Virus record (IMG/VR): IMGVR_UViG_3300007511_000096
Span: 1-29,328 of that record
Reading direction: 5' to 3' (one strand)
Source: a virus
Length of the DNA stretch: 29,328 bases
Below the pieces are notes generated by a model that was not told the DNA's origin, made no database searches, and was given only the letters and a program-made list of their open reading frames with translations. Shown in pieces: positions 4,142-29,328 of the stretch. A program made the translations under genes and the position numbers. Numbering within the stretch: the stretch's first letter is position 1; the number at the start of each line of letters is the position of its first letter.

Positions 4142-5314
4142 TCATACTCCTTCCGAGCTAAGTTGATGATCAAACGAATATGCTGTTTGACCAAATTCTG
4201 AAATGTCAATTCCTTGAGTTTCATCTTCCAACGAAACCCTTATTCCCATAATAAGTTTAATGACATACCAAGTGACAAAACTTGAAAGAAATACAAATGA
4301 ACCAATCATTCCTACTCCCCCTAGTTGAGCCATAAAGGAAACTTCCGAATTGAAAATTCCTACCGCTAAAGTTCCCCAAATTCCCGCTACAAGATGTACA
4401 GATAATGCACCAACTGGATCATCAATCCTTGCTCTATCAAACATAGGTATTGCAATAACCGCAAGTCCTGCTCCAACTGCACCAATAACTATTGCCAATC
4501 CCATTGTTGGATAATCGGGCCCAGCAGTTATAGAAACCAATCCTGCAAGAGCACCATTGAGAACCATCGTGAGATCTATTTTTTTGTAAAGAATTTGAGT
4601 TAGAATTGCAGCAGTAATTACTCCCGCTGCAGCTGCAATGTTTGTATTGACAAACACGGCACTTATTGCATCAACATCTTCCCTAGTTGCCATTGCAAGT
4701 TGAGAACCACCATTAAAACCAAACCAACCTAACCAGAGAACGAATGTTCCCAAAGTTGCAAGAGGAAGATTTGATGGTGGTATTAGATTTGCTTTTCCGT
4801 CTTCCCTGTACTTACCATGTCTTGCACCAAGAAGTAAAACCCCTGCAAGTGCAGCCCATCCACCAACTGAATGTACTATGGTTGAACCAGCAAAATCCGA
4901 AAACCCCATTTCTGACAAGAAACCTCCACCCCAAGTCCATGCACCTTGTAGTGGATATATGAATGCAGAAAGTACTGCAACAAATGCCATGAAAGGCCAG
5001 AACTTCATCCTTTCTGCAATTGTTCCTGAAATGATAGACGCTGCGGTTGCAACAAAGACTACTTGGAAAAAGAAATCTGATAAACCAGAATGGTCACCAT
5101 TAGATATGGCACCATACATCACTTGATATCCAATTGCGAAAAATGCGAGACAACTCAAAGAGTATAAACAAATATTTTTTGTAAGAATTGCTGTCGTATT
5201 CTTAGTTCGTACCAAACCCGATTCTAACATTGCAAATCCTGCCGCCATATAAAATACAAAGGCTCCAGAAAATAATAATAGAAACGTGTTCAGAATATAC
5301 TGAACATCAGACAT
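4142..5314 (-). CDS. amt: Ammonium transporter (Amt family)
   Basis: A 390-residue polytopic inner-membrane protein with about eleven hydrophobic segments, the family's normal length. Signature segments include GFAMLESGLVR near 26-36, the twin pore histidines His148 (TIVHSVGG) and His307 (LSVHLVAG), and a conserved cytosolic tail with QGIDISEFGQTAY, the region that contacts GlnK/PII in characterised homologues. Amt/AmtB trimers import ammonium. The gene looks intact, with all key residues, so it should be functional. It sits between two phosphoribosyltransferase genes and near a Na/Pi cotransporter, so it is best read as a nutrient-uptake auxiliary gene. A ribosome-binding AAGGA lies about 10 bases before the ATG. 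No PII gene is visible here. Confidence 0.95.
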   Translation of the reverse strand: MSDVQYILNTFLLLFSGAFVFYMAAGFAMLESGLVRTKNTTAILTKNICLYSLSCLAFFAIGYQVMYGAISNGDHSGLSDFFFQVVFVATAASIISGTIAERMKFWPFMAFVAVLSAFIYPLQGAWTWGGGFLSEMGFSDFAGSTIVHSVGGWAALAGVLLLGARHGKYREDGKANLIPPSNLPLATLGTFVLWLGWFGFNGGSQLAMATREDVDAISAVFVNTNIAAAAGVITAAILTQILYKKIDLTMVLNGALAGLVSITAGPDYPTMGLAIVIGAVGAGLAVIAIPMFDRARIDDPVGALSVHLVAGIWGTLAVGIFNSEVSFMAQLGGVGMIGSFVFLSSFVTWYVIKLIMGIRVSLEDETQGIDISEFGQTAYSFDHQLSSEGV

Positions 5315-7567: not shown

Positions 7568-8545
7568 TTATTTTGCATTCTCCAATAGTTTTGCTTCGAA
7601 TTCTCTTAACCTTCTATAGACACTCATCAATTCAATGATGGTCGGCCATGACTTTAAAAGATATTGCATTGAGCCTTCCACTCTACCAAATGCTCTTATT
7701 ATTTGTTGCATTACACCCAGAGTCATTACTCCTGCAACTATTGCTGGTGCTAAGAAAACATATGCTGATAGAACATTTGCTTGTAAGTAAGCCATTCTTC
7801 CGATATTAAAATACAGATATCGCAAATAACTTAAATAGTGAATCTTTCGAACATCATCAAAAAATTCTTCAATCTTCTTTGGTCTGACAGTACCATCATC
7901 TTCTGCAATCACAAGTATTTTACGATATGCGGCTTCTTTTTTCTGTATGTCGTATTCAATGCCAACCAAACGCAGAATCCACCCCAGAAGAATCAAAAAT
8001 GCAGTACCACCTATGGTCCAAAGTAACGCACCTGTAATCAATCCATATTGCCAATCACCAAAAAAGAATATCGGAATACCCATTGACAATCCGAATAGTA
8101 TAGGAATGAATTGTACCAAAACCATAACTGATTCTATGAAAGATGTTCCCAAACCTTCCATGATACGAGTAAATTTTATCGTATCTTCTTGAACTCTTTG
8201 AGATGCACCTTCTATTGTTCTAGCTTGTTCATACACACTATGATACCATTCAACCATTGCTGTGCGCCATCTAAACAAATAATGAGCAGTAAAATAACTT
8301 ATTATAACATAGAGTCCGACATATATTCCTGCAAGTGTAATGAAAGAAAATAAACTTGCAAAATATTCTTCTATTGTAACTGCATTCGGAGTGGCAAGTG
8401 CCTTTTGAATCATGTCATAAAAGACGCCGAACCATTCATTTATTTTGACATCAATTTCAACTTGAACCCAAAGTGACCCCAAAATAATTATTGAGCCTAA
8501 CCACGACCATAAAAACCATTTTTTGTTTGTAAAAAAACTAAACAT
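7568..8545 (-). CDS. sbmA: SbmA/BacA-family peptide transporter
   Basis: 325 residues, an inner-membrane protein with about six hydrophobic helices. It matches E. coli SbmA closely along the core: EWFGVFYDMIQKAL, HYLFRWRTAMVEWY, IEGASQRVQEDT, EAAYRKILV, YLRYLYFNIGR and LLKSWPTIIELMSVYRRLR all have direct counterparts. SbmA/BacA imports peptides (microcins, proline-rich antimicrobial peptides, bleomycin) using the proton gradient. Compared with E. coli SbmA (about 406) it lacks roughly the first 80 residues and starts at the core domain. It lies in an operon with ExbB/ExbD-like and HtrA-like genes. Identification is confident; finding this family in a phage is unexpected. Substrate in this setting is unknown. 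Confidence 0.92.
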   Translation of the reverse strand: MFSFFTNKKWFLWSWLGSIIILGSLWVQVEIDVKINEWFGVFYDMIQKALATPNAVTIEEYFASLFSFITLAGIYVGLYVIISYFTAHYLFRWRTAMVEWYHSVYEQARTIEGASQRVQEDTIKFTRIMEGLGTSFIESVMVLVQFIPILFGLSMGIPIFFFGDWQYGLITGALLWTIGGTAFLILLGWILRLVGIEYDIQKKEAAYRKILVIAEDDGTVRPKKIEEFFDDVRKIHYLSYLRYLYFNIGRMAYLQANVLSAYVFLAPAIVAGVMTLGVMQQIIRAFGRVEGSMQYLLKSWPTIIELMSVYRRLREFEAKLLENAK

Positions 8546-17149: not shown

Positions 17150-17178
17150 ACTATATCAAATTTTTCTATGAATGTCAA
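17150..17178 (-). promoter_or_regulatory. Early sigma-70-type promoter with A-tract
   Basis: TTGACA (17178-17173), 17-base spacer, TATAGT (17155-17150), preceded by A7. Leader AAGTGAGTGATTGAGATAAC then CGGAG before the gene at 16906-17109. Confidence 0.87.
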
Positions 17179-17202
17179 ATTTTTTTCAAGTTTTTTATGT
17201 GG

Positions 17203-17559
17203 TCACAATAACAATCCATATTCAGACCAATAATGTTTTTTCTCTCTAGAGTATACTCTGTGTTTTTTGATTTTCCATTTCTCAATTACAGGATTTCCTT
17301 CTTCATCTTCATCCAGAAGAATATAGGCTACAGTTTTCAGAACCTTTGCCATACGAAATCCCCTGTCCATTTTCCAAGGAGTAGTCACCCAGACTCGATG
17401 AACATATTCTGATTTCAAACCATAATCAGCATACGCAACCCAATCCTCTTCCTTGGCTTCCGAATACTCAAAAAATTTACCAGTTTCTTTGGATTCAAAT
17501 GAACCAATAATTGAACTGTCTCCTACATTGAAATAGGTACTAGAATCAGCAAACGCCAT
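17203..17559 (-). CDS. Hypothetical protein (118 aa)
   Basis: Soluble, aromatic-rich protein (FFEYSEAKEEDWVAYADYG; VHRVWVTTPWKMDRGFRM) with an acidic turn (LLDEDEEGNPVIE) and a basic end. It may form a small beta-rich domain. No family recognised. First gene after the promoter at 17602-17630. Confidence 0.68.
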   Translation of the reverse strand: MAFADSSTYFNVGDSSIIGSFESKETGKFFEYSEAKEEDWVAYADYGLKSEYVHRVWVTTPWKMDRGFRMAKVLKTVAYILLDEDEEGNPVIEKWKIKKHRVYSREKKHYWSEYGLLL

Positions 17560-17601
17560 ATCAAATCTCCAAAAGGGTTATTGTCTCACTCACTTGACTA
17601 T

Positions 17602-17630
17602 AGTATACCAAAGATAATGTCCAATGTCAA
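17602..17630 (-). promoter_or_regulatory. Early sigma-70-type promoter with A-tract
   Basis: TTGACA (17630-17625), 17-base spacer, TATACT (17607-17602), preceded by A6. Leader CAAGTGAGTGAGACAATAAC then TGGAGATTTGAT before the gene at 17203-17559. Confidence 0.88.
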
Positions 17631-17635
17631 CTTTT

Positions 17636-17974
17636 TTACAATTCCATTCCAAGTTCAAGTCCCATCGTAGAAAGTACAAATTTTATTTCCGTTATTGTTC
17701 TTCTACCCCGAACTCCCTTCGTATAAAGTTCTTTCTCAGAATTACTTACCAAGTCCCTTACAGTTACAATATTTAACTTGTGTAATGTATTAATGGAACG
17801 AACTGAGAAATCGATATCTATAATATCAAGTGAAAGTTTCTTATTCACATCTACAGATTTATTTTCTCTATATTCTTCTAATTCCTTCTTCATCTCCAAA
17901 TTTTCATCACGTAACTCTCTGACTTCAACTATCAGAAGAGCAAGTTCCTCAATCAATCTTTCTCTACTTACCAT
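17636..17974 (-). CDS. RNA polymerase alpha C-terminal-domain-like protein
   Basis: 112 residues. Residues 1-40 form a coiled coil (RLIEELALLIVEVREL, EMKKELEEYREN). Residues 47-112 match the bacterial RpoA C-terminal domain along its whole length, including the ending GLELGMEL. Residues that contact UP-element DNA in E. coli alpha are kept or replaced conservatively: Arg59 (R265), Asn62 (N268), Gly90 (G296), Arg92 (K298), Thr93 (S299), Glu96 (E302). There is no alpha N-terminal domain, so it cannot be a core subunit; it should bind A-tract DNA and perhaps polymerase, with the coiled coil giving dimerisation. Its own promoter (18016-18045) and eight others here have A-tracts before the -35. 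Family call is confident; the regulatory role is inferred. Confidence 0.88.
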   Translation of the reverse strand: MVSRERLIEELALLIVEVRELRDENLEMKKELEEYRENKSVDVNKKLSLDIIDIDFSVRSINTLHKLNIVTVRDLVSNSEKELYTKGVRGRRTITEIKFVLSTMGLELGMEL

Positions 17975-18015
17975 AATGAATCTCCAAAAGGGTTATCTCT
18001 CTCACTCACAGGTAC

Positions 18016-18045
18016 ATTATATCACACTTTACCATCGAATGTCAA
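18016..18045 (-). promoter_or_regulatory. Early sigma-70-type promoter of the alpha-CTD-like gene
   Basis: TTGACA (18045-18040), 18-base spacer, TATAAT (18021-18016), preceded by A7. It overlaps the 3' end of the upstream gene. Leader GTGAGTGAGAGAGATAAC then TGGAGATTCATT before the alpha-CTD ATG. Confidence 0.85.
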
Positions 18046-18207
18046 GTTTTTTTCTGGATAAAAACACTCAACTTCATCTCCATCAATAAAATTTTCTGGA
18101 AAATCATCTGCCTCATCCATCCAACCAAATAAAATATCTTCTTCATCATCTTCATTATGAGCAACGAATGGCTCAAGAAAAATCTTATCAAATCTGAAAT
18201 CATTCAT
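18022..18207 (-). CDS. Small acidic protein (61 aa)
   Basis: Very acidic (EDDEEDILFGWMDEADDFPENF), with few basic residues, resembling small phage proteins that mimic DNA or bind basic partners, though this is only composition. Its ATG overlaps the preceding TAA by one base (TAATG). Confidence 0.62.
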   Translation of the reverse strand: MNDFRFDKIFLEPFVAHNEDDEEDILFGWMDEADDFPENFIDGDEVECFYPEKNLTFDGKV

Positions 18208-18338
18208 TACGCAACCTTTCTCAAGAATATCTTTACTTTTTTACGAACACCTTTATTGGCCATTCGCTTCAGAATCTTATTGTTTGTTCTACCCCAACAT
18301 GCAGCGAACTTTCTACCTAATTTGTTTTCGTTTTTCAT
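18207..18338 (-). CDS. Small basic protein (43 aa)
   Basis: MKNENKLGRKFAACWGRTNNK, then a Lys/Arg-rich helix (KRMANKGVRKKVKIFLRKVA). It directly precedes the acidic 61-residue protein, an opposite-charge pairing in one transcript. Function unknown. Confidence 0.58.
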   Translation of the reverse strand: MKNENKLGRKFAACWGRTNNKILKRMANKGVRKKVKIFLRKVA

Positions 18339-18853
18339 TCTAGTCCTAATTCAGATTCGATGTTTTTCCAGACTTTCAGGAATCCATACAGGAGTCCTTT
18401 CTCTCTTCCGTAAGCTTCAATCTCATAAGGAAGTTCAAAATACTCCATGAGATTTTCTGGATTATGATTGACTCCCTTGTACAGAAGTCCTGCATCTCTC
18501 CACTTCAACTCATCCATCACATACTGTTTCACATGAACCAGTTCATGGGCAAGAGTTTTGAGAATTTCAACAAACCACTCCATATCCGTTCTCTCTTCAC
18601 CTGTCATCTCATTTGTCTTCATTCGATGATGGTCAAGTATCACACGAAATGCCCTAGGGCGATACCGATTCGTTTCCTCATCCAACATCGCTTCACCTTC
18701 ATTGGAATGGTGTTTCAGATGAATATGAACTTCAATATTATCTCTCAATTTCTTTGAAGGTATCAACCTTAAAAGTGCAAACTCTGTCATGCCGTACATT
18801 GCAAGTTTGAATTTTGTGTCAAAACCTTTGGAATGTAATCTGATGTATGCCAT
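18335..18853 (-). CDS. Zinc metallopeptidase-like protein (HExxH)
   Basis: 172 residues. The zincin motif HELVH at 103-107 lies in a helix (ILKTLAHELVHVKQYV), and a downstream PYEIEAYGREKG at 142-153 supplies acidic residues suitable as a third zinc ligand. This is the arrangement of SprT/WLM-type and related phage metalloproteins. The N-terminal third has strand-rich segments (IEVHIHLKHH; FRVILDHHRM). A protease role is likely by family; the target is unknown. It is driven by the promoter at 18898-18926. Confidence 0.82.
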   Translation of the reverse strand: MAYIRLHSKGFDTKFKLAMYGMTEFALLRLIPSKKLRDNIEVHIHLKHHSNEGEAMLDEETNRYRPRAFRVILDHHRMKTNEMTGEERTDMEWFVEILKTLAHELVHVKQYVMDELKWRDAGLLYKGVNHNPENLMEYFELPYEIEAYGREKGLLYGFLKVWKNIESELGLE

Positions 18854-18897
18854 ATCCTTTTTTTGTCAAAGGGTTATCTCTCAACCAATCAGATTAT

Positions 18898-18926
18898 AGT
18901 ATAACAAAAACATGACAGGATGTCAA
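18898..18926 (-). promoter_or_regulatory. Early sigma-70-type promoter with A-tract
   Basis: TTGACA (18926-18921), 17-base spacer, TATACT (18903-18898), preceded by A7 and by the TGACGGA repeats. Leader TTGAGAGATAACCC. Drives the metallopeptidase gene. Confidence 0.88.
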
Positions 18927-18935
18927 GTTTTTTTA

Positions 18936-18980
18936 TCCGTCATTTATCCGTCATATCGAAAGTGACGGAAAAGTGACGGA
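18936..18980. repeat. Paired inverted repeats, TCCGTCA x2 and TGACGGA x2
   Basis: TCCGTCA at 18936-18942 and 18947-18953, and TGACGGA at 18963-18969 and 18974-18980. The copies on each side are 11 bases apart, one helical turn. The array can fold into a long hairpin or bind a dimeric protein twice. It lies directly upstream of the A-tract and -35 of the promoter at 18898-18926. Confidence 0.85.
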
Positions 18981-18995
18981 TATAAGGTGTAATTA

Positions 18996-19003
18996 TATTT
19001 ATC
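18996..19003 (-). promoter_or_regulatory. Late-type promoter-like site, GATAAATA
   Basis: NATAAATA overlapping the stop codon of the 51-residue membrane protein. It shares 15 bases (ATAAATATAATTACA) with the site at 11448-11455, which makes chance less likely. It could add late expression of the metallopeptidase gene. Confidence 0.45.
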
Positions 19004-19154
19004 CGCCAAAACGAGGGCCGTTGCCTCCTTCTCGGATTATGTCAGTAAACCCAGCAAGAACTCCAATCACCAACGCATCGTATATTATGTCTCCGCCCAT
19101 CATACCAAAGAAGAACAGATAGGGAATGCCAAATAGATAACGCAATTTCATCAT
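18999..19154 (-). CDS. Small membrane protein (51 aa)
   Basis: MMKLRYLFGIPYLFFFGMMGGDI, then a second hydrophobic stretch (YDALVIGVLAGFTDII) and a polar GREGGNGPRFGG-type end. Two possible membrane segments. The start overlaps the MazG-like stop (ATGATGA); the second Met is an alternative. Function unknown. Confidence 0.68.
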   Translation of the reverse strand: MMKLRYLFGIPYLFFFGMMGGDIIYDALVIGVLAGFTDIIREGGNGPRFGG

Positions 19155-19432
19155 ATAAGTCGGCTCCATTTTTTGAGTTTCGTTCTTTTCTCTGCTACAC
19201 CTTGTCTGATATCAGCCCAATCCACAAGGCCTTCTGTTTGCAACAATTCAATCATGCACTGAACATCTGCGACTTCTTTAGCCAAATCCTTCATCATAGA
19301 TTCCTCAAGAGTCTTTTTATTCTCCAACTCCCGCTCCTCCAAATCTCGTTTTCGTAAAACCTTGGAACAGGCTTGTGTCAACTCACCACACTCTTCCATT
19401 GTAATAATCAACAATTCTGTTAACTTATCCAT
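19151..19432 (-). CDS. mazG: MazG-like nucleotide pyrophosphohydrolase
   Basis: 93 residues, all-alpha. The metal-binding signature is complete: EECGE at 13-17 and EVADVQ at 53-58 (Glu13, Glu14, Glu17, Glu53, Asp56). Enzymes of this fold hydrolyse NTPs or dNTPs to monophosphates; T4-like marine phages commonly carry one, proposed to act on nucleotide pools or alarmones. It is one domain, shorter than two-domain MazG of E. coli. GGGGAG precedes the ATG. Confidence 0.85.
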   Translation of the reverse strand: MDKLTELLIITMEECGELTQACSKVLRKRDLEERELENKKTLEESMMKDLAKEVADVQCMIELLQTEGLVDWADIRQGVAEKRTKLKKWSRLI

Positions 19433-19444
19433 TGTTTCTCCCCC

Positions 19445-19684
19445 CTACATCGCATCTGGCCCAAACATGAAAAGATCTTCATCTTCTTTATTCCCTATCA
19501 TTTTCCCTTTGGTTGGATGTGGGATTCTGATACCTTCTTCATCTGGGTTGTCCCATTTCTCTCCACAACTGGCACATAACTGCCCTACACCAGAAATATA
19601 ATGTCTACGAAAATCTACATGTGTATCGATATTAATGTCTGTTTGTGTGCCACACGAAACACACGTTTCCGTTTTTTCGCTCAT
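19445..19684 (-). CDS. Small zinc-ribbon protein (79 aa)
   Basis: CVSC at 8-11 and CASC at 37-40 form a four-cysteine zinc ribbon; the remainder is polar with an acidic C-terminus (NKEDEDLFMFGPDAM). Overlaps the upstream gene by 4 bases. Role unknown. Confidence 0.7.
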   Translation of the reverse strand: MSEKTETCVSCGTQTDINIDTHVDFRRHYISGVGQLCASCGEKWDNPDEEGIRIPHPTKGKMIGNKEDEDLFMFGPDAM

Positions 19685-20043
19685 GTTGATTCTTCGTTTC
19701 CAAATTGTTTATCTGTAAGTGCAACCGGGCCGTTTTTCCGTATCTCTGTTTCACTATTCGCCCAGTTTTGTGTCGCTTGTTTAACTTCATCATCACCTGA
19801 AACTTTAGGTACGACTTCACCCCGAATTCCAAACTGCCGAATTTCCACCTCTTCCCTTCCAGCCGAAGGAAACATTGCAACTGGTTTATGATCCATCCAA
19901 GTACCATCCTGCACCATTTGCCACAACTTATCTTTACATGCAACCGAACAGACCTTTGAAATATCTGGGTCATTATTCCACCAATGGCCGACATTAAAAC
20001 CTTCATTGGTAAATCGATTATAACAACAACTACAAATACTCAT
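19681..20043 (-). CDS. Hypothetical protein with N-terminal zinc site (120 aa)
   Basis: CSCC at 4-7 and CSVAC at 32-36 could bind one zinc. The rest (about 45-120) is polar, with little predicted secondary structure. ATGA overlap with the zinc-ribbon gene suggests two related small zinc proteins made together. Confidence 0.68.
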   Translation of the reverse strand: MSICSCCYNRFTNEGFNVGHWWNNDPDISKVCSVACKDKLWQMVQDGTWMDHKPVAMFPSAGREEVEIRQFGIRGEVVPKVSGDDEVKQATQNWANSETEIRKNGPVALTDKQFGNEEST

Positions 20044-20057
20044 AATAATATTATCTC

Positions 20058-20306
20058 CTAATTCAAAAGAGGAACTTCCTCGCCAACTGGTTCGTCTTCA
20101 CTCTTGAGATGCTCCTCATAATCTTCCTCATTATCAAATGCAATGAAAGATTTTTGCAACTCTCCGTACTCATCAAACTCAATATCCACATCAATGATTT
20201 CTCCATCTGGTGTTTCCAGATAGATAGACATTTCTTTCAATGGCATTTTTATTGATTTCAAATGTTTGAGAAGTTTGATACCTTCTTTGAAAATCACTTT
20301 GCTCAT
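20058..20306 (-). CDS. Hypothetical acidic protein (82 aa)
   Basis: Basic start (SKVIFKEGIKLLKHLKSIKMP) followed by a strongly acidic middle and end (ETPDGEIIDVDIEFDEYG; DNEEDYEEHLKSEDEPVGEE). Overlaps the upstream gene by 4 bases. No family recognised. Confidence 0.68.
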   Translation of the reverse strand: MSKVIFKEGIKLLKHLKSIKMPLKEMSIYLETPDGEIIDVDIEFDEYGELQKSFIAFDNEEDYEEHLKSEDEPVGEEVPLLN

Positions 20307-20725
20307 GCTGTCTCCTTTTCTTTTTCCATTTCAGCAATTCTGGCCTGGACTGCATCTTCATCGATACCACCATGCTTTTTGAGAACTTGGTCAACAAGTT
20401 TTACTGGTACAAAACCATAAACTGTGTTACACAGCCTAGGGTCATCATCGCCCTCAATTTCCCAATCCTCTGCATACTCTGCAATCAACGGCTCAGGCAC
20501 CGAAGGATAACCAATCTCAACCTCACGATATTGCTTCGCAACATCTCTTGGAGAGCTGTACAACGATTGGCCACATTGTACCGACATAACAAAACCATCT
20601 TTACAAATTACAAGAGGGTTACGAGAAACTGCCATGTTTCCTATTCCACCATCATAAAGATTAGGTACATCGGGGTACTCAGTAACAGTTCTGTACTTCT
20701 GGATAAATTCATTAATGTTATTCAT
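20303..20725 (-). CDS. Hypothetical protein (140 aa)
   Basis: Reads as a normal globular protein with hydrophobic centre (NPLVICKDGFVMSVQCGQ), a Pro/Glu-rich segment (YPSVPEPLIAEYAEDWEIEGDD), and a C-terminal helix (VQARIAEMEKEKE). I recall similar sequences in T4-like marine phages but no function. AAGGAGAT precedes the ATG. Confidence 0.72.
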   Translation of the reverse strand: MNNINEFIQKYRTVTEYPDVPNLYDGGIGNMAVSRNPLVICKDGFVMSVQCGQSLYSSPRDVAKQYREVEIGYPSVPEPLIAEYAEDWEIEGDDDPRLCNTVYGFVPVKLVDQVLKKHGGIDEDAVQARIAEMEKEKETA

Positions 20726-20958
20726 GATTTTATATCTCCTTGTTCTATCATTTTTTCAAAACAATCCATCAACCTTCTGCATCGAATTGCGTGTAACTCA
20801 GAGATACCAATCAAACAATTGTGTAACTCATCTTCAGTATGCCCTGCTGAGTCATCACAAATCTTCCACATCAGATTGTCTATATCATCTTTTGTGGTCC
20901 AAGTAGCTTGAATCAGTTCCTCTAATTTAAATCTATCATTCTTCATTATATTAATCAT
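20722..20958 (-). CDS. Hypothetical helical protein (78 aa)
   Basis: Helical throughout (FKLEELIQATWTTKDDIDNLMW; NCLIGISELHAIRCRRLMDCFEKMI), with four Cys. Overlaps both neighbours (4 bases). No family recognised. Confidence 0.68.
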   Translation of the reverse strand: MINIMKNDRFKLEELIQATWTTKDDIDNLMWKICDDSAGHTEDELHNCLIGISELHAIRCRRLMDCFEKMIEQGDIKS

Positions 20959-21134
20959 GATAATTCCTTTTCTTGTTGTTGTTGTTGTTGTTGGTGGTGA
21001 CGGCAGAATGTTTCATCATTCAAGATTTCGATTAATCGTTTTATTTTTTCGGGAGAAAGGCTTCTCAACAATCCAATTGTTGCGCCATCGAATCCCATTT
21101 TGTATAGTTCGTTATGCCCTATTGCTGTATACAT
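20955..21134 (-). CDS. Small protein with poly-Gln tract (59 aa)
   Basis: Residues 1-45 look globular and helical (GLLRSLSPEKIKRLIEIL); HH is then followed by seven consecutive Gln, all CAA, and EKELS. The CAA repeat (plus-strand TTG repeat) is length-variable in principle. Overlaps DHODH by 16 bases and the next gene by ATGA. Confidence 0.6.
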   Translation of the reverse strand: MYTAIGHNELYKMGFDGATIGLLRSLSPEKIKRLIEILNDETFCRHHQQQQQQQEKELS

Positions 21135-21853
21135 TGTTTCAGTAATTTCTTCATCTTAAACCAATTCAAACAAACACTCCCAATCGAAACATGGTCTGCT
21201 CCTCTTGCCAAGTAATCCTGTACGGCGCCAATGCTATCCACACCACCCCCAGCAATCACCTCCACGGCCGCACCCCAACGCTCTCTTACTATATCTATCA
21301 ATTCCATCGTGTAAGGCCGCAACTCTGGGCCAGACAACCCACCGCCCTCCGACAAGGGTAATGTGTTGCTAAAGTGTAACTGTTTAAACCCCAATTCATC
21401 TACCAAGAATTCTAATTGTTCTGGTGAAGTCAAGGGTGAAAGTTTTGCGATACACCACTCACGCTTCCTCTCTCTCAAGAAAATCTCTGCATCATCCCAA
21501 GGAAGTGTCTTTCCCAAATTCGGGCAAGAAAGATTCAATTCCACACTCTGGTTTGCAGGAATAAGAGATGCAAGTGTTTCAAACTCACCTCTCTTTGTTT
21601 CTGCAATTGAGAGAACAGTAGTTGCACCCATTGTGGTTGCATCCATCTTCTCCAATCCCACTTTGATGCCTGGATTGGGTAAACCTAGTTTGTTTGTCCA
21701 CCCTTTGTGTCTGCGGCTCCACCTGAGACTCTTCACCACACTCCACAATCGATTCCCTCTAGGATGTAAAGTGTATGTCCCTACTGTAGAGATTGCATTT
21801 GGATGTTTGATGTAATTACCAAACGGTGCAGAAATAAAAAACTTCGGGGTCAT
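21119..21853 (-). CDS. pyrD: Dihydroorotate dehydrogenase-like protein (class 1 type)
   Basis: 244 residues, a flavin-binding TIM barrel. NLSCPN at 107-112 is the class 1 catalytic-cysteine motif (Cys110), followed by GPELRPYTMELIDIV, an AGGGVDS phosphate-binding loop and GADHVSIGS near the end. It would oxidise dihydroorotate to orotate in pyrimidine synthesis; with ThyX and the PRT genes it completes a nucleotide-supply set. It is shorter than class 1A enzymes (about 310), mainly in the N-terminal region and the loops, so activity should be tested. A structured RNA gene lies upstream. Confidence 0.82.
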   Translation of the reverse strand: MTPKFFISAPFGNYIKHPNAISTVGTYTLHPRGNRLWSVVKSLRWSRRHKGWTNKLGLPNPGIKVGLEKMDATTMGATTVLSIAETKRGEFETLASLIPANQSVELNLSCPNLGKTLPWDDAEIFLRERKREWCIAKLSPLTSPEQLEFLVDELGFKQLHFSNTLPLSEGGGLSGPELRPYTMELIDIVRERWGAAVEVIAGGGVDSIGAVQDYLARGADHVSIGSVCLNWFKMKKLLKQCIQQ

Positions 21854-21859
21854 CTTTTT

Positions 21860-22006
21860 TTATTTTGTTTCTGTGCCGCAGCAACCATCCACCTCAACAT
21901 GATTGCGGAGATAAGTCAGTTGCTTGTTTGCGAATGTTCCGTATGTGAGAAACAACAAATTGATTGCTATCACTTTCCAGAGTGGTGCTCCTGCGAAATC
22001 TATCAT
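21860..22006 (-). CDS. Small membrane protein (48 aa)
   Basis: MIDFAGAPLWKVIAINLLFLTYGTF, one hydrophobic helix, then a polar tail ending in DGCCGTETK. ATG 22006 has GGAGAAA 5 bases upstream and ends 6 bases before DHODH. A longer start would add 12 residues. Function unknown. Confidence 0.58.
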   Translation of the reverse strand: MIDFAGAPLWKVIAINLLFLTYGTFANKQLTYLRNHVEVDGCCGTETK

Positions 22007-22124
22007 GATGGTTTCTCCGCAGATTGTGGCTTCTTTAATCATTGTTTTGCTTTTGGGAAGGGTTTTTAGCCAGAAAAAAATTTTTAAAAACTATACATGG
22101 AAAATGTTTATGCGAAATCCTTTG

Positions 22125-22146
22125 AAAAAAAGTGGTATATAACCAC
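22125..22146 (-). terminator. Intrinsic terminator of the large noncoding RNA
   Basis: Minus strand: GTGGT (22146-22142), loop TATAT, ACCAC (22136-22132), then T7 at 22131-22125. Short stem, perfect T-run. Confidence 0.65.
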
Positions 22147-22516
22147 ACCTCTGCTCGCTCTCATCACTACACAAGGCCGCTGTTTAAACCCAGCATATGC
22201 AAAAGCAGACTATTGCGTGAGTTCCAAGTCAGAATAGTCTGCATCTTGCGTGGAGAGTGTTATGAAGTTATGACCCTTCTTTTGCTGATGTGCATAATGT
22301 AGTGTATTGTATGTCAACACCAGCAGGGAAACACCGCTCTCTGGCTCCCCTATTATTTTGTAAGATTAGCGGCAGACCACCAAGACTGCTGCCGCTCAGT
22401 CCGTATTAGCGTTTCCGACTCTTGGTCTTTAAAGATGCGCTAAGTGACACCTGTGGAATGCGTGTTACTGCTATCCGAAGACCGTAACCATCTCTTAATC
22501 ACTCCATCACTCCATC

Positions 22517-22566
22517 GGACCTAAATACCACATAACGTGTTGGACCAAAATACCACATATCATGTT
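22517..22566. repeat. Two tandem 25-bp direct repeats inside the noncoding RNA
   Basis: Plus-strand units 22517-22541 and 22542-22566 share GGACC, AAATACCACATA and TGTT and differ at four positions. Each RNA copy carries TATGTGGTATTT and GGTCC. Confidence 0.88.
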
Positions 22567-22915
22567 GGGTAGAAAGAAGTCATTATCAGCAGTCTTATGG
22601 ACTAGTCTAATGGACTGCTGTTGGTTTGTCGGGCTTGTTTCCCGACTTGCATCTCCCAACTCACTTCGTTCGCCGTGACAACCAGCCGCACTGTCTCCGA
22701 ATTGCACTCACTCGCACACTTCACCAGAGGTCTTACGTGAGCATTTAGTTTACTCACCCCTCTTCGGAACTCCACAGGTCACTAGCGGGGAAGGTGGGAG
22801 TGTCACCCTTCCCTATTATCGTTTGGTCATTTAACCCATAACTATCACCTGTAGTCCTTTCTTAAGCAGGCAGTTACTATTTCAGAGAAGGTCTTTTCTC
22901 ACCCTCACATATACT

Positions 22916-22944
22916 ATTATACCAAATTAAACACCAAATGTCAA
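22916..22944 (-). promoter_or_regulatory. Sigma-70-type promoter of the large noncoding RNA
   Basis: TTGACA (22944-22939), 17-base spacer, TATAAT (22921-22916), both hexamers perfect, preceded by A5. No protein gene follows within 900 bases, so it serves the RNA. Confidence 0.87.
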
Positions 22945-22950
22945 GTTTTT

Positions 22951-22996
22951 GTCTCATCGGTATTTCGTCTAGACCACCTTAGGGCCCCGATGAGAC
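22951..22996. repeat. 10-bp inverted repeat hairpin
   Basis: GTCTCATCGG (22951-22960) and CCGATGAGAC (22987-22996) pair perfectly across 26 bases that contain a GTCTAGAC palindrome. There is no T-run on the minus side, so it is not a standard terminator for that strand; it separates the upstream gene from the noncoding RNA promoter. Confidence 0.85.
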
Positions 22997-23005
22997 TTGT
23001 TTGAT

Positions 23006-23062
23006 GTGTGGGCTGTGGCTCTTGCTTCACTGGTAGTATCAAAAGAGGGACTACACCCACAC
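23006..23062 (-). ncRNA. Candidate three-way-junction RNA with loop-loop contact
   Basis: Minus strand helices: P1 GTGTGGG/CCCACAC (23062-23056 with 23012-23006), P2 GTAGT/ACTAC (23054-23050 with 23037-23033) and P3 with GTG/CAC plus GC/GC (23030-23015). Bases 23043-23047 in the P2 loop are complementary to 23019-23023 in P3 (CTCTT with AAGAG), a possible kissing contact. It lies 11 bases after a stop codon. Resembles a compact regulatory RNA in shape; unmatched to any class by me. Confidence 0.45.
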
Positions 23063-23072
23063 CATTTCGGGA

Positions 23073-23318
23073 TTATATTTCTTCCCAACTCCCAAGTCTT
23101 TCTATTTCAGACTCTCTCACGTAACATTCCGGCCATCGATAGGCATAATCCTTTCCCTCTTTGATTTCTATGAGGTCTAATATTTCATCGTACTGACGAG
23201 AGAATGCTTTCTCATGGTCAGGAGAGAGTGCATACTCAATCTCATAACCCATAAACTTAAGTTCTTCACGGAGTTCTGGAACACTAAGTTTTCCGTAGTA
23301 GTCGCTGAATAATTTCAT
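23073..23318 (-). CDS. Hypothetical protein (81 aa)
   Basis: Helical N-terminal half (VPELREELKFMGYEIEYAL), middle QYDEILDLIEIKEG, and a Trp/Tyr-rich end (YAYRWPECYVRESEIERLGSWEEI). No family recognised. Driven by the promoter at 23477-23505. A structured RNA follows its stop. Confidence 0.68.
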   Translation of the reverse strand: MKLFSDYYGKLSVPELREELKFMGYEIEYALSPDHEKAFSRQYDEILDLIEIKEGKDYAYRWPECYVRESEIERLGSWEEI

Positions 23319-23476
23319 ATCGTTCCTTTCGATAAGGTTGAAGAAAAGCGGTTTTGAATTTTCGTTTCGTTTATATAAAAGTTTCTCTCTCTGGGCAGTC
23401 GTGCTGGTCCCCCACCCCCCACTGACGGAGGGGCTCCGATCATCAAAAATTCTTTCTCTCTCAACCTCACAATTAC
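23319..23476 (-). other. Leader with a G-rich element, upstream of the 81-aa gene
   Basis: About 150 bases with no reading frame. On the minus strand it contains CCCCTCC, then GTCAGT and a G6-T-G5 run (23408-23420 region), unlike its AT-rich surroundings. It can pair C-run with G-run or form a G-quadruplex-like fold. AAAGGAACGAT precedes the ATG. Confidence 0.45.
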
Positions 23477-23505
23477 ACTATAACAAATTTATCTCTGAAT
23501 GTCAA
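23477..23505 (-). promoter_or_regulatory. Early sigma-70-type promoter with A-tract
   Basis: TTGACA (23505-23500), 17-base spacer, TATAGT (23482-23477), preceded by A7. It overlaps the 3' end of the upstream gene and drives the gene at 23073-23318. Confidence 0.87.
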
Positions 23506-23738
23506 GTTTTTTTCAATACCTCATCCAATTTCTTATTCAATTCCTTCCAGTATTGAGGGTCATCAGCTTGCCCATCTGAATACAATTCCTTCCACGGCAC
23601 AGTTGGAATCATCTCCATTGTGTGGGATTCGAGCATCTTAATTTCAAATCCATGTTGTCGGGCTGCAGGGGTTGGGTCTAGTGTGGTGATATGTCCACCA
23701 CGTTTCAGGTACTCTTCAACAGTTTCATTTCTACTCAC
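23502..23738 (-). CDS. Hypothetical protein (78 aa)
   Basis: MSRNETVEEYLKRGGHITTL start, a Pro/Ala turn, then strands and a C-terminal helix (QYWKELNKKLDEVLKKT). No family recognised. First gene after the promoter at 23791-23819. Confidence 0.68.
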   Translation of the reverse strand: MSRNETVEEYLKRGGHITTLDPTPAARQHGFEIKMLESHTMEMIPTVPWKELYSDGQADDPQYWKELNKKLDEVLKKT

Positions 23739-24138
23739 TTTACCTCTTTTGTGATTAGGTTATACTTACACTTAAAAACTCCACAGAGTTATTATAACAT
23801 ATTCTGGCGGGTTTGTCAAGTTTTTTGTCGGTATGATTATTGCAAGCCCTGCACGTGCCGTCATGAGCTCGCCCCGAGCGGCATGAGGAAAGAGCGGCAG
23901 CGGTATGTTTTTTGCATGGATTTTTGTGTGAAACGGCATTTGTGTGGAGTTTTGTGGGGGGGAATTTTGTGTGGAATATCAGATACAAGATGTCAGATAA
24001 AAGTCAGAAAGCCCGGAAACACACAAACAGCACATCCCGATTTATCTTACATTTAAAAAACAAGACTTAGCCATTCCGCTTTTTTCACCAACAGCCACAC
24101 TACCCCAACGCGGCAGCACCCCCTCAGCAGGGTTTTTT
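23739..24138. other. Gene-poor stretch of about 400 bases
   Basis: Contains the promoter at 23791-23819. The remaining 23820-24138 has no credible gene: frames are low-complexity and cross the promoter. It holds a GC-rich hairpin (GCTCG/CGAGC near 23868-23880), repeated CACACAAAA-like tracts, and on the plus strand CCCT/AGGG followed by T7 near 24119-24139. Composition differs from its neighbours. Confidence 0.5.
23791..23819 (-). promoter_or_regulatory. Early sigma-70-type promoter with A-tract
   Basis: TTGACA (23819-23814), 17-base spacer, TATAAT (23796-23791), both perfect, preceded by A6. Drives the gene at 23502-23738. Confidence 0.88.
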
Positions 24139-27631: not shown

Positions 27632-28140
27632 AGAATATTTTCTGGAATCTCTTCTGACAATTGTTCCTCTTCTTCATGATTCTTACGCATTTGGTTTAAT
27701 ATTTCTTTTTTTGCACGTTTTTCCATGATGCTCTTTATATGATTCTGATGTATCTGGAACAATTTACTTTCGTCATATGGTTTCCCATCTTCTAATTTTT
27801 GTGCAATTGCAACTGCATCTTTTGGGTCATTCAACCATTCAGATTTCCATATTCCTTTTATTTTAACAGGACATTTTCTTGGATTATCATATACAATTCC
27901 ATTATCCTCATTCACCCACCAGAGATGTAAAACTCCAATAAACCCTATTTCTTCGTTTCCAAACGCTTGTAAAACATTCTTGATACCCAAGGATTGTAGA
28001 AAAGGAAATTGTTGGTCGTTGTAGAACCTATGACGAAATTGTATTTCCATTGCGTGTCGCAATTCCGCCTGTAAATTCTCATTGGGAACTTTGTTGTACG
28101 GAATAGTGATTGATTCTATTTGTTTGTTTGTTGTTTCCAT
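27622..28140 (-). CDS. Hypothetical protein (172 aa)
   Basis: Globular N-terminal part with aromatic clusters (FRHRFYNDQQFPFLQSLG; GVLHLWWVNEDNG) and a C-terminal Glu/Lys-rich helix (MEKRAKKEILNQMRKNHEEEEQLSEEI). No family recognised. ATG overlaps the preceding TAA (TAATG). Confidence 0.7.
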   Translation of the reverse strand: METTNKQIESITIPYNKVPNENLQAELRHAMEIQFRHRFYNDQQFPFLQSLGIKNVLQAFGNEEIGFIGVLHLWWVNEDNGIVYDNPRKCPVKIKGIWKSEWLNDPKDAVAIAQKLEDGKPYDESKLFQIHQNHIKSIMEKRAKKEILNQMRKNHEEEEQLSEEIPENILWN

Positions 28141-29328
28141 TAATATACCTTACCATATACTGATGCATCAAACATATCTTTTAACCCCAAAGAATGTGCA
28201 TAAGAAAATAATGCAGTAATTAATGTTCCTGCATTTCCTTTTTTTGCAAGAATATTAAGTGCTCCTGCAATTTGTGTAGATTGTATTTTTGATACGAAAA
28301 AATCATCTTTTATTTTTTGTTCAAACTTCCCCTGTTTATTTGCAAATTCTTTATTTGAAAGTTCTTGTTTCAATCTATTTACAGAATATTCTGTAAATCC
28401 TGCCTTTGCATAACCATCTGCAATTTCTTTTACTTTTTGGTCTTCTGTCAATTTAACAATCTGGTCTTTATCCTTAATGGTTACTCCTGCGAGTTTTTTA
28501 ACTAAATATGAAGTTACCCCAAATCCGGCCTTTCCTCCGGCCGCATTTTTCCCTTTGATTTCACATTGTATGTTATTATTATAATCAAATGTTCTGATTT
28601 GTATTTTCATATCGCCTACATTTTTACCGACTTCAACATACATATCCTTTGAATTAGTTCCAGTTTTTGGTGGAACAATTTTCTTAAACGCAAAATCAAT
28701 TTTTTGATTTGGTAGATTGTAAGTATCATATCTTGGATTCTTTCCAAGTTTTTTCAATGAAATTCCCATTATATCTGCATTTGTGTATTTTTCTAACAAA
28801 TAATTATTCATTTTATCAACAGATGGCAAATCCTTTTTGGTTGGAAATTGATTCTCCGCACTAATCCAAATATCGCCAGGATTCCACTTATCACCAGAAA
28901 TTCTCAATCCTATTGTATTGAGTTCTTTTAAATTTGTTTGAAATAATTTATAGATACTATTCATAAAAGTAGAATCTCTATGGAAATTCCAATTTTTTGT
29001 TGTTCCTCTCAATTTTTCTTTGTAAATTATTTCTGCTGTTTCTATTGTAGTTTGAAACCAAACATCATCTCCCTTTAACCAATCATATATTAATTTTAGT
29101 TCTCTTTTAGTATCATGGGGGCCTAAATCAACAATTACATCCATTTTGTTAAATTCATCCATATCCAATGGTAATTCTTTTCCATTATTTTTTGTTTTAT
29201 ATGCAAGTGCAATACACACAGCGGATTCTGCCCATCGTGTAACAGTTGCACCAGCCCCACTTCCACCTGTTGAATAAGGAGTTTTATTTATTTTAGTCCA
29301 TGCAAATGCAGACCCATCAGCAGTAATG
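28140..29328 (-). CDS. Large hypothetical protein, 5' end beyond window
   Basis: Open to the right edge (at least 396 codons): no stop precedes the first visible Met-like codon, and in-frame coding continues to the last base (GGSGAGATVTRWAESA before CIALAY). So the protein starts outside the window. It reads as a soluble multi-domain protein with Lys-rich surfaces. Segment YVEVGKNVGDMKIQIRTF and the following NIQCEIKGKN could be a nuclease-like core, but I cannot name it; an ordinary structural or DNA-processing protein is equally likely. It is the first gene of the local transcript. Confidence 0.72.
   Translation of the reverse strand, partial: ITADGSAFAWTKINKTPYSTGGSGAGATVTRWAESAVCIALAYKTKNNGKELPLDMDEFNKMDVIVDLGPHDTKRELKLIYDWLKGDDVWFQTTIETAEIIYKEKLRGTTKNWNFHRDSTFMNSIYKLFQTNLKELNTIGLRISGDKWNPGDIWISAENQFPTKKDLPSVDKMNNYLLEKYTNADIMGISLKKLGKNPRYDTYNLPNQKIDFAFKKIVPPKTGTNSKDMYVEVGKNVGDMKIQIRTFDYNNNIQCEIKGKNAAGGKAGFGVTSYLVKKLAGVTIKDKDQIVKLTEDQKVKEIADGYAKAGFTEYSVNRLKQELSNKEFANKQGKFEQKIKDDFFVSKIQSTQIAGALNILAKKGNAGTLITALFSYAHSLGLKDMFDASVYGKVY

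Follow-up and report, generated by a model that had tools for sequence, protein, structure and literature searches.

A stretch of about 785 nt on the minus strand of an IMG/VR virus record very probably represents a genuine structured non-coding RNA, judging from its sequence and that of one relative. This conclusion draws on the absence of a credible gene from the stretch, a core shared with a second viral contig (hereafter L002), a hairpin (Pb) in which base pairs have changed on both sides of the stem, and the break of the reading frame through the core at a 4-nt indel. An earlier note had proposed a structured RNA of this size with its own promoter and terminator, and both the anatomy of the locus and the homologue with its compensatory base-pair changes bear this out.

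The window, i.e. the whole stretch of DNA analysed, is the linear record IMGVR_UViG_3300007511_000096 (29,328 bases). It encodes a DUF6267 protein (phrog_455), a trypsin-like protease, IMPDH-like and DHOdh-like proteins and a Thy1-type thymidylate synthase; the phage also carries genes for an ammonium transporter (4142–5314) and an SbmA/BacA-like transporter (7568–8545). This fragment contains no tRNA genes. The nearest isolates, as identified through DUF6267, include the Melnitz group of Methylophilales phages (50% at the amino acid level; Melnitz itself is classed under Kyanoviridae), along with phage C48C1, cyanophages and Pelagibacter phage HTVC008M. The source appears to be an uncultured marine T4-like phage. 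The RNA locus comprises the following elements:

22916–22944, minus strand: sigma-70 type promoter, TTGACA-17-TATAAT with TG before the -10 element, 12 of 12 consensus positions
22125–22909, minus strand: proposed structured non-coding RNA of about 785 nt, based on ORFs, stops in the sense frames, a GC peak and the homologue in L002
22125–22146, minus strand: intrinsic-terminator-like stem-loop with a run of seven T; a similar stem with a run of six T lies at L002:561–580

The promoter is as perfect as the earlier note had claimed, and transcription would start near 22910–22908. Counting this one, the window has six strong matches, and a similar leader accompanies several of them. Near-consensus promoters recur across the early region (17150–23819), some sharing the surroundings of the -35 element and a TGTGAG-type leader, and several related records also yield promoter-plus-leader matches in blastn searches with the RNA as the query. 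Downstream of the RNA promoter, the longest ORF inside the RNA is a 66-aa frame starting from GTG (22507–22707), and all three sense frames contain several stops each, in agreement with the claim that no credible gene is present. The GC content of the RNA (46.4%) is the maximum among 1142 sliding 785-nt windows, compared with a mean of 36.4% for the whole window. The stem and the T7 run of the claimed terminator (22146–22125) are confirmed; the stem (GTGGT/ACCAC) has only 5 bp and such sites are hardly more frequent in the RNA region than expected by chance (four, against a mean of 2.8 in shuffled sequences). The locus has the general layout of a large structured phage non-coding RNA, several hundred gene-free nucleotides with a promoter and a terminator of their own.

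Two features of the upstream neighbourhood deserve mention in their own right. A perfect 10-bp inverted repeat, GTCTCATCGG/CCGATGAGAC (22950–22999, found by eye), is located just upstream of the RNA promoter and falls in the 3' region of a gene for an 81-aa protein. The 5' leader of that gene (23319–23510, minus strand; promoter at 23505–23477) contains a GC-rich block, GGAGCCCCTCCGTCAG...GGGGGGTGKGGGAG...AGCACGAC, that shows strong conservation, being similar in the window, in L002 (4630–4820) and in two other contigs, L128 (65–280) and L129, and is possibly a structured cis element.

The only homologue of the RNA was found through a search for relatives of the DHOdh-like protein, in viral contig IMGVR_UViG_3300020473_000108 (L002). 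Positions 6–212 of this contig are 88% identical to RNA nucleotides 90 to ∼ 292, which defines a 204-nt core; because the contig ends 5 bases beyond the match, the L002 copy lacks its 5' part. Between these two phages, protein identity is 51% for the DHOdh-like protein and 75% for DUF6267. Beyond the core there is no overall DNA alignment between the two copies; 3' of the core, both have, in the same order, hairpin Pa, then hairpin Pb, then a short stem followed by a run of T. The elements within the RNA are as follows:

22617–22820, minus strand: conserved core, 88% identical to L002:6–212, represented by core model R1
22788–22813, minus strand: core hairpin GGGAAGG/CCTTCCC with a 12-nt loop, identical in L002
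22675–22782, minus strand: proposed core closing helix GUGAC/GUCAC (22778–22782 with 22675–22679), invariant in both sequences, showing no covariation
22737–22757, minus strand: core hairpin GTGAGTA/TGCTCAC with loop AACTAAA, identical in L002
22695–22729, minus strand: core stem with an inner helix (22703–22718), from comparison with L002
22628–22646, minus strand: core hairpin GTCGGG/CCCGAC with loop AAACAAG; stem identical and one loop change in L002
22587–22620, minus strand: hairpin Pa (8 bp), with a counterpart hairpin at L002:210–232
22517–22566, minus strand: a pair of tandem 25-nt repeats within the variable part, seen in the sequence of the window RNA
22368–22396, minus strand: hairpin Pb, with an 8-bp stem and a loop containing GTCTTGGTGGT, from comparison with L002

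Perfect stems are present, as the earlier note had stated. The proposed closing helix GUGAC/GUCAC encloses further core helices. The core itself tells little about pairing, because 36 of the 40 proposed pairs never vary; two show one-sided changes, one has changed on both sides and one is broken. For the core stem at 22695–22729 and its inner helix, the comparison with L002 gives one two-sided change, two one-sided changes and one broken pair. Nor is the core alone unusually stable (folding z of -0.79 and -1.62). The tandem 25-nt repeats were not seen, on inspection by eye, in the shorter counterpart stretch of L002.

The clearest signal of selection on structure comes from Pb. Four of its eight stem pairs differ from L002 on both sides, all eight staying intact, with the loop kept at 12 of 13 positions. 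When the criteria were an 8-bp stem present in both sequences, a loop identity of 85% or more and two or more two-sided changes, no such hairpin appeared in 300 pairs of dinucleotide-shuffled 3' parts; shuffling the columns of the two-row alignment gave 33 of 500, which is about the best that two rows can yield. The compensatory changes expected of a large phage non-coding RNA are seen at Pb. A T-box likeness of GGUGGU...CCGC in Pb was considered and rejected, as there was no Rfam match and the motif is not kept in the L002 stem.

The loop of Pa is complementary in both sequences to the bases preceding Pb (22397–22402), forming a candidate pseudoknot of 5–6 bp in the window and 6–7 bp in L002, counting G-U pairs; one pair is A-U in one sequence and U-A in the other (by eye). 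Shuffled loops reach five pairs in 13.5% of cases for the window and six pairs in 4.1% for L002, so that the pseudoknot is suggestive only. The earlier note had claimed a 7-bp pseudoknot without giving its position; the only candidate with any comparative support has 5–6 bp in the window. Two other pairings were rejected: the 9-bp ACCTGTGGA/TCCACAGGT, for which no clear 3' arm was seen by eye in L002, and the 10-bp AAGACTGCTG/CAGCAGTCTT, which would disrupt Pa and Pb, both of which have L002 counterparts. Overall, the proposed structure appears well supported at Pb and plausible in the core. Covariation in helices, which the earlier note had named as a test, is present at Pb but rests on two sequences, one of them truncated on its 5' side, and is thin beyond that hairpin.

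The whole RNA folds below its shuffled versions (z of -3.55 with 20 shuffles and -3.32 with 30), compared with a z of -2.07 for the opposite strand, and L002:1–580 also folds well below shuffles (z of -4.77). We give folding energy little weight because, among 35 other segments taken from the minus strand of the window, one has a lower score (-3.46) than the RNA.

Searches for further relatives added no third member. With the window RNA as query, blastn against 50,697 phage records and 72,556 plasmid records gave either nothing or matches that were promoter-like or short and due to chance, and the same was true of the L002 copy against the phage records. In viral contigs, two exact patterns recovered the L002 contig only, and two gapped patterns recovered it again together with L123 and L130–L134, which were judged by sequence and blast to be due to chance; in genome contigs, two patterns returned zero and four stretches, the four showing no similarity outside the pattern. 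Used as a viral-contig query, the protein encoded at 28140–29219 had no relative, the 81-aa neighbour led to two contigs that lack the RNA and start just short of its expected place, and DUF6267 gave 80 loci. Among the records of 50 DUF6267 relatives, blastn with the window RNA found promoter and leader matches and one 19-nt match to the 3' end; with the L002 copy, it found matches of 15–21 bases only. Core model R1 recognized only the two known copies in 49 records, and likewise over sets of 36 and 11 loci. A descriptor of Pb, run over 143 loci, matched an 8-bp stem solely in copies of the window and L002 sequence, its other matches having 5–6 bp and different loops. GC-rich ORF-poor stretches in the loci of distant relatives were examined and rejected, most of them carrying tRNA arrays and manA RNA rather than this RNA. 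The absence of the RNA from several relatives means little because their contigs end before or near the region, and near-identical records may have been left out of the searches.

We favour, with moderate confidence, the view that this is a phage-encoded, stand-alone RNA of about 780 nt, expressed early and acting in trans as a scaffold or decoy, with a conserved core and a variable periphery. It would be transcribed early in infection by the host RNA polymerase, as a separate transcript from its host-type sigma-70 promoter, and released at the intrinsic terminator as a presumably stable molecule. The ∼ 200-nt core would fold into a fixed shape surrounded by a fast-changing periphery, and Pb would present a fixed loop on a covarying stem. 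The invariant loops may contact either other copies of the RNA, as in GOLLD and ROOL, or a host component as partner, and the phage would gain from the contact. The combination of a conserved core with fixed loops and a variable periphery is what might be expected of a scaffold, a decoy or a self-assembling RNA.

Of the alternatives, a regulatory RNA that acts mainly by pairing its loops with host or phage messages would suit the several invariant hairpin loops. With an E limit of 0.001, a search of both strands of the 29-kb record found no other match, and hence no long match suggesting antisense action, which is in line with the preferred scaffold or decoy; short pairings could escape such a search. 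We consider predominantly base-pairing regulation unlikely.

Slightly less likely still is a long 5' leader controlling the downstream DHOdh-like operon through attenuation at the terminator. In both phages the RNA lies upstream of the DHOdh-like gene, and GTGGTAT, part of the tandem repeats, is the complement of ATACCAC in the terminator, in the manner of an antiterminator. However, in the nine other loci examined (L003–L008 and L010–L012) the DHOdh-like gene directly follows protein genes and the records give no match to the core model, which makes a leader role less likely; 780 nt is long for a leader, and small ORFs separate the RNA from the DHOdh-like gene in L002.

That the locus is a gene remnant or encodes a short protein, rather than a functional RNA, is very improbable. 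The core frame does read alike in the window and L002 for about 34 codons, and L002 has a 96-aa ORF over the core, but the frame breaks at the 4-nt indel and then diverges. The 11 substitutions before the indel are distributed 6/1/4 over codon positions 1/2/3 (hand count from the alignment), which reads as a non-coding pattern in these two sequences, and the compensatory changes in Pb also argue against a coding role. A conserved protein frame, which the earlier note had named as grounds for refutation, was thus looked for and judged absent.

The earlier note had suggested a possible marine member of the GOLLD or ROOL families, which the model searches do not support. A scan of the window with the whole Rfam library (4227 families) gave no match at gathering score; with E allowed up to 10, the sole match in the RNA region, to Xoo2 at 22363–22423, was rejected as due to chance (14.1 bits against a cut-off of 45, E of 7). 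The same kind of scan did find tRNAs and manA RNA in loci of distant relatives that share DUF6267. At the same E limit of 10, the GOLLD model (RF02032, gathering score 150 bits) had no match in the window, L002 and L128 records, nor did the ROOL model (RF03087, gathering score 99.1 bits) in five records including the window and L002. Because control genomes also score below the cut-offs of both models, distant kinship is rated as unlikely rather than refuted. A highly divergent GOLLD or ROOL RNA forming an RNA-only cage, suggested by the size, the phage setting, the division into a conserved and a variable half (a split into more and less conserved regions is also described for GOLLD, PMC12286853) and a tRNA-Cys gene ∼ 6 kb away in L002, is the least probable alternative given the failure of both models and of the Rfam library and the lack of tRNA genes in the window.

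Like GOLLD, the RNA is phage-borne, non-coding, about 800 nt long and divided into more and less conserved parts; unlike GOLLD, whose conserved region is at the 3' side (PMC12286853), it has its core towards the 5' side. The frequent proximity of GOLLD to tRNA genes has no parallel in the tRNA-free window fragment; in L002, the one tRNA-Cys gene is ∼ 6 kb from the RNA. It resembles ROOL as a large structured phage-borne RNA with a variable stretch, but does not match the 574-position ROOL model and is longer than it. In that paper, GOLLD is described as assembling into a 14-mer RNA cage and ROOL as an abundant transcript that forms an RNA cage; both are presented as cage-forming phage RNAs of unknown function, and whether other large RNAs form cages is posed as an open question (PMC12286853). 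A non-coding transcript of ∼ 800 nt in phage ICP1 has been compared in length to GOLLD and ROOL by its authors (PMC7567579). It is likewise a same-size ORF-less phage locus away from tRNAs and without an Rfam match (L141), but belongs to another phage, gives no match to the core model and lacks our three motifs except for one chance-like match. Two long non-coding RNAs of phage K have also been likened to GOLLD and ROOL (PMC9241854). The manA RNA (RF01745) is a structured RNA in loci of distant DUF6267 relatives, but has only ∼ 195 nt, is listed in Rfam as cis-regulatory and has no match in the window. In six of these relatives (L067, L073, L092, L093, L098 and L101), it is embedded in arrays of 7 to 25 tRNA genes. 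A literature search of partial coverage recognized no large structured RNA of marine T4-like phages.

The RNA is thus likely a new addition to the giant phage RNAs, matching no catalogued family and having one recognizable relative. The earlier suggestion of a new class is compatible with these data, although the known members are only two. To our knowledge, no function has been established for the giant phage RNAs, and models or structures exist for only a few of them. A bolder version, which we hold only tentatively and think improbable, is that the RNA represents a third independent giant class whose copies join through their invariant loops to form a multimer or cage made of RNA alone. Such a class, with no sequence relationship to GOLLD or ROOL and found so far in two T4-like viral contigs, would mean that these assemblies arose more than twice. 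A further sequence-unrelated giant RNA in a marine T4-like phage would suggest repeated origin, and its compact conserved core (∼ 200 nt) offers a handle for probing.
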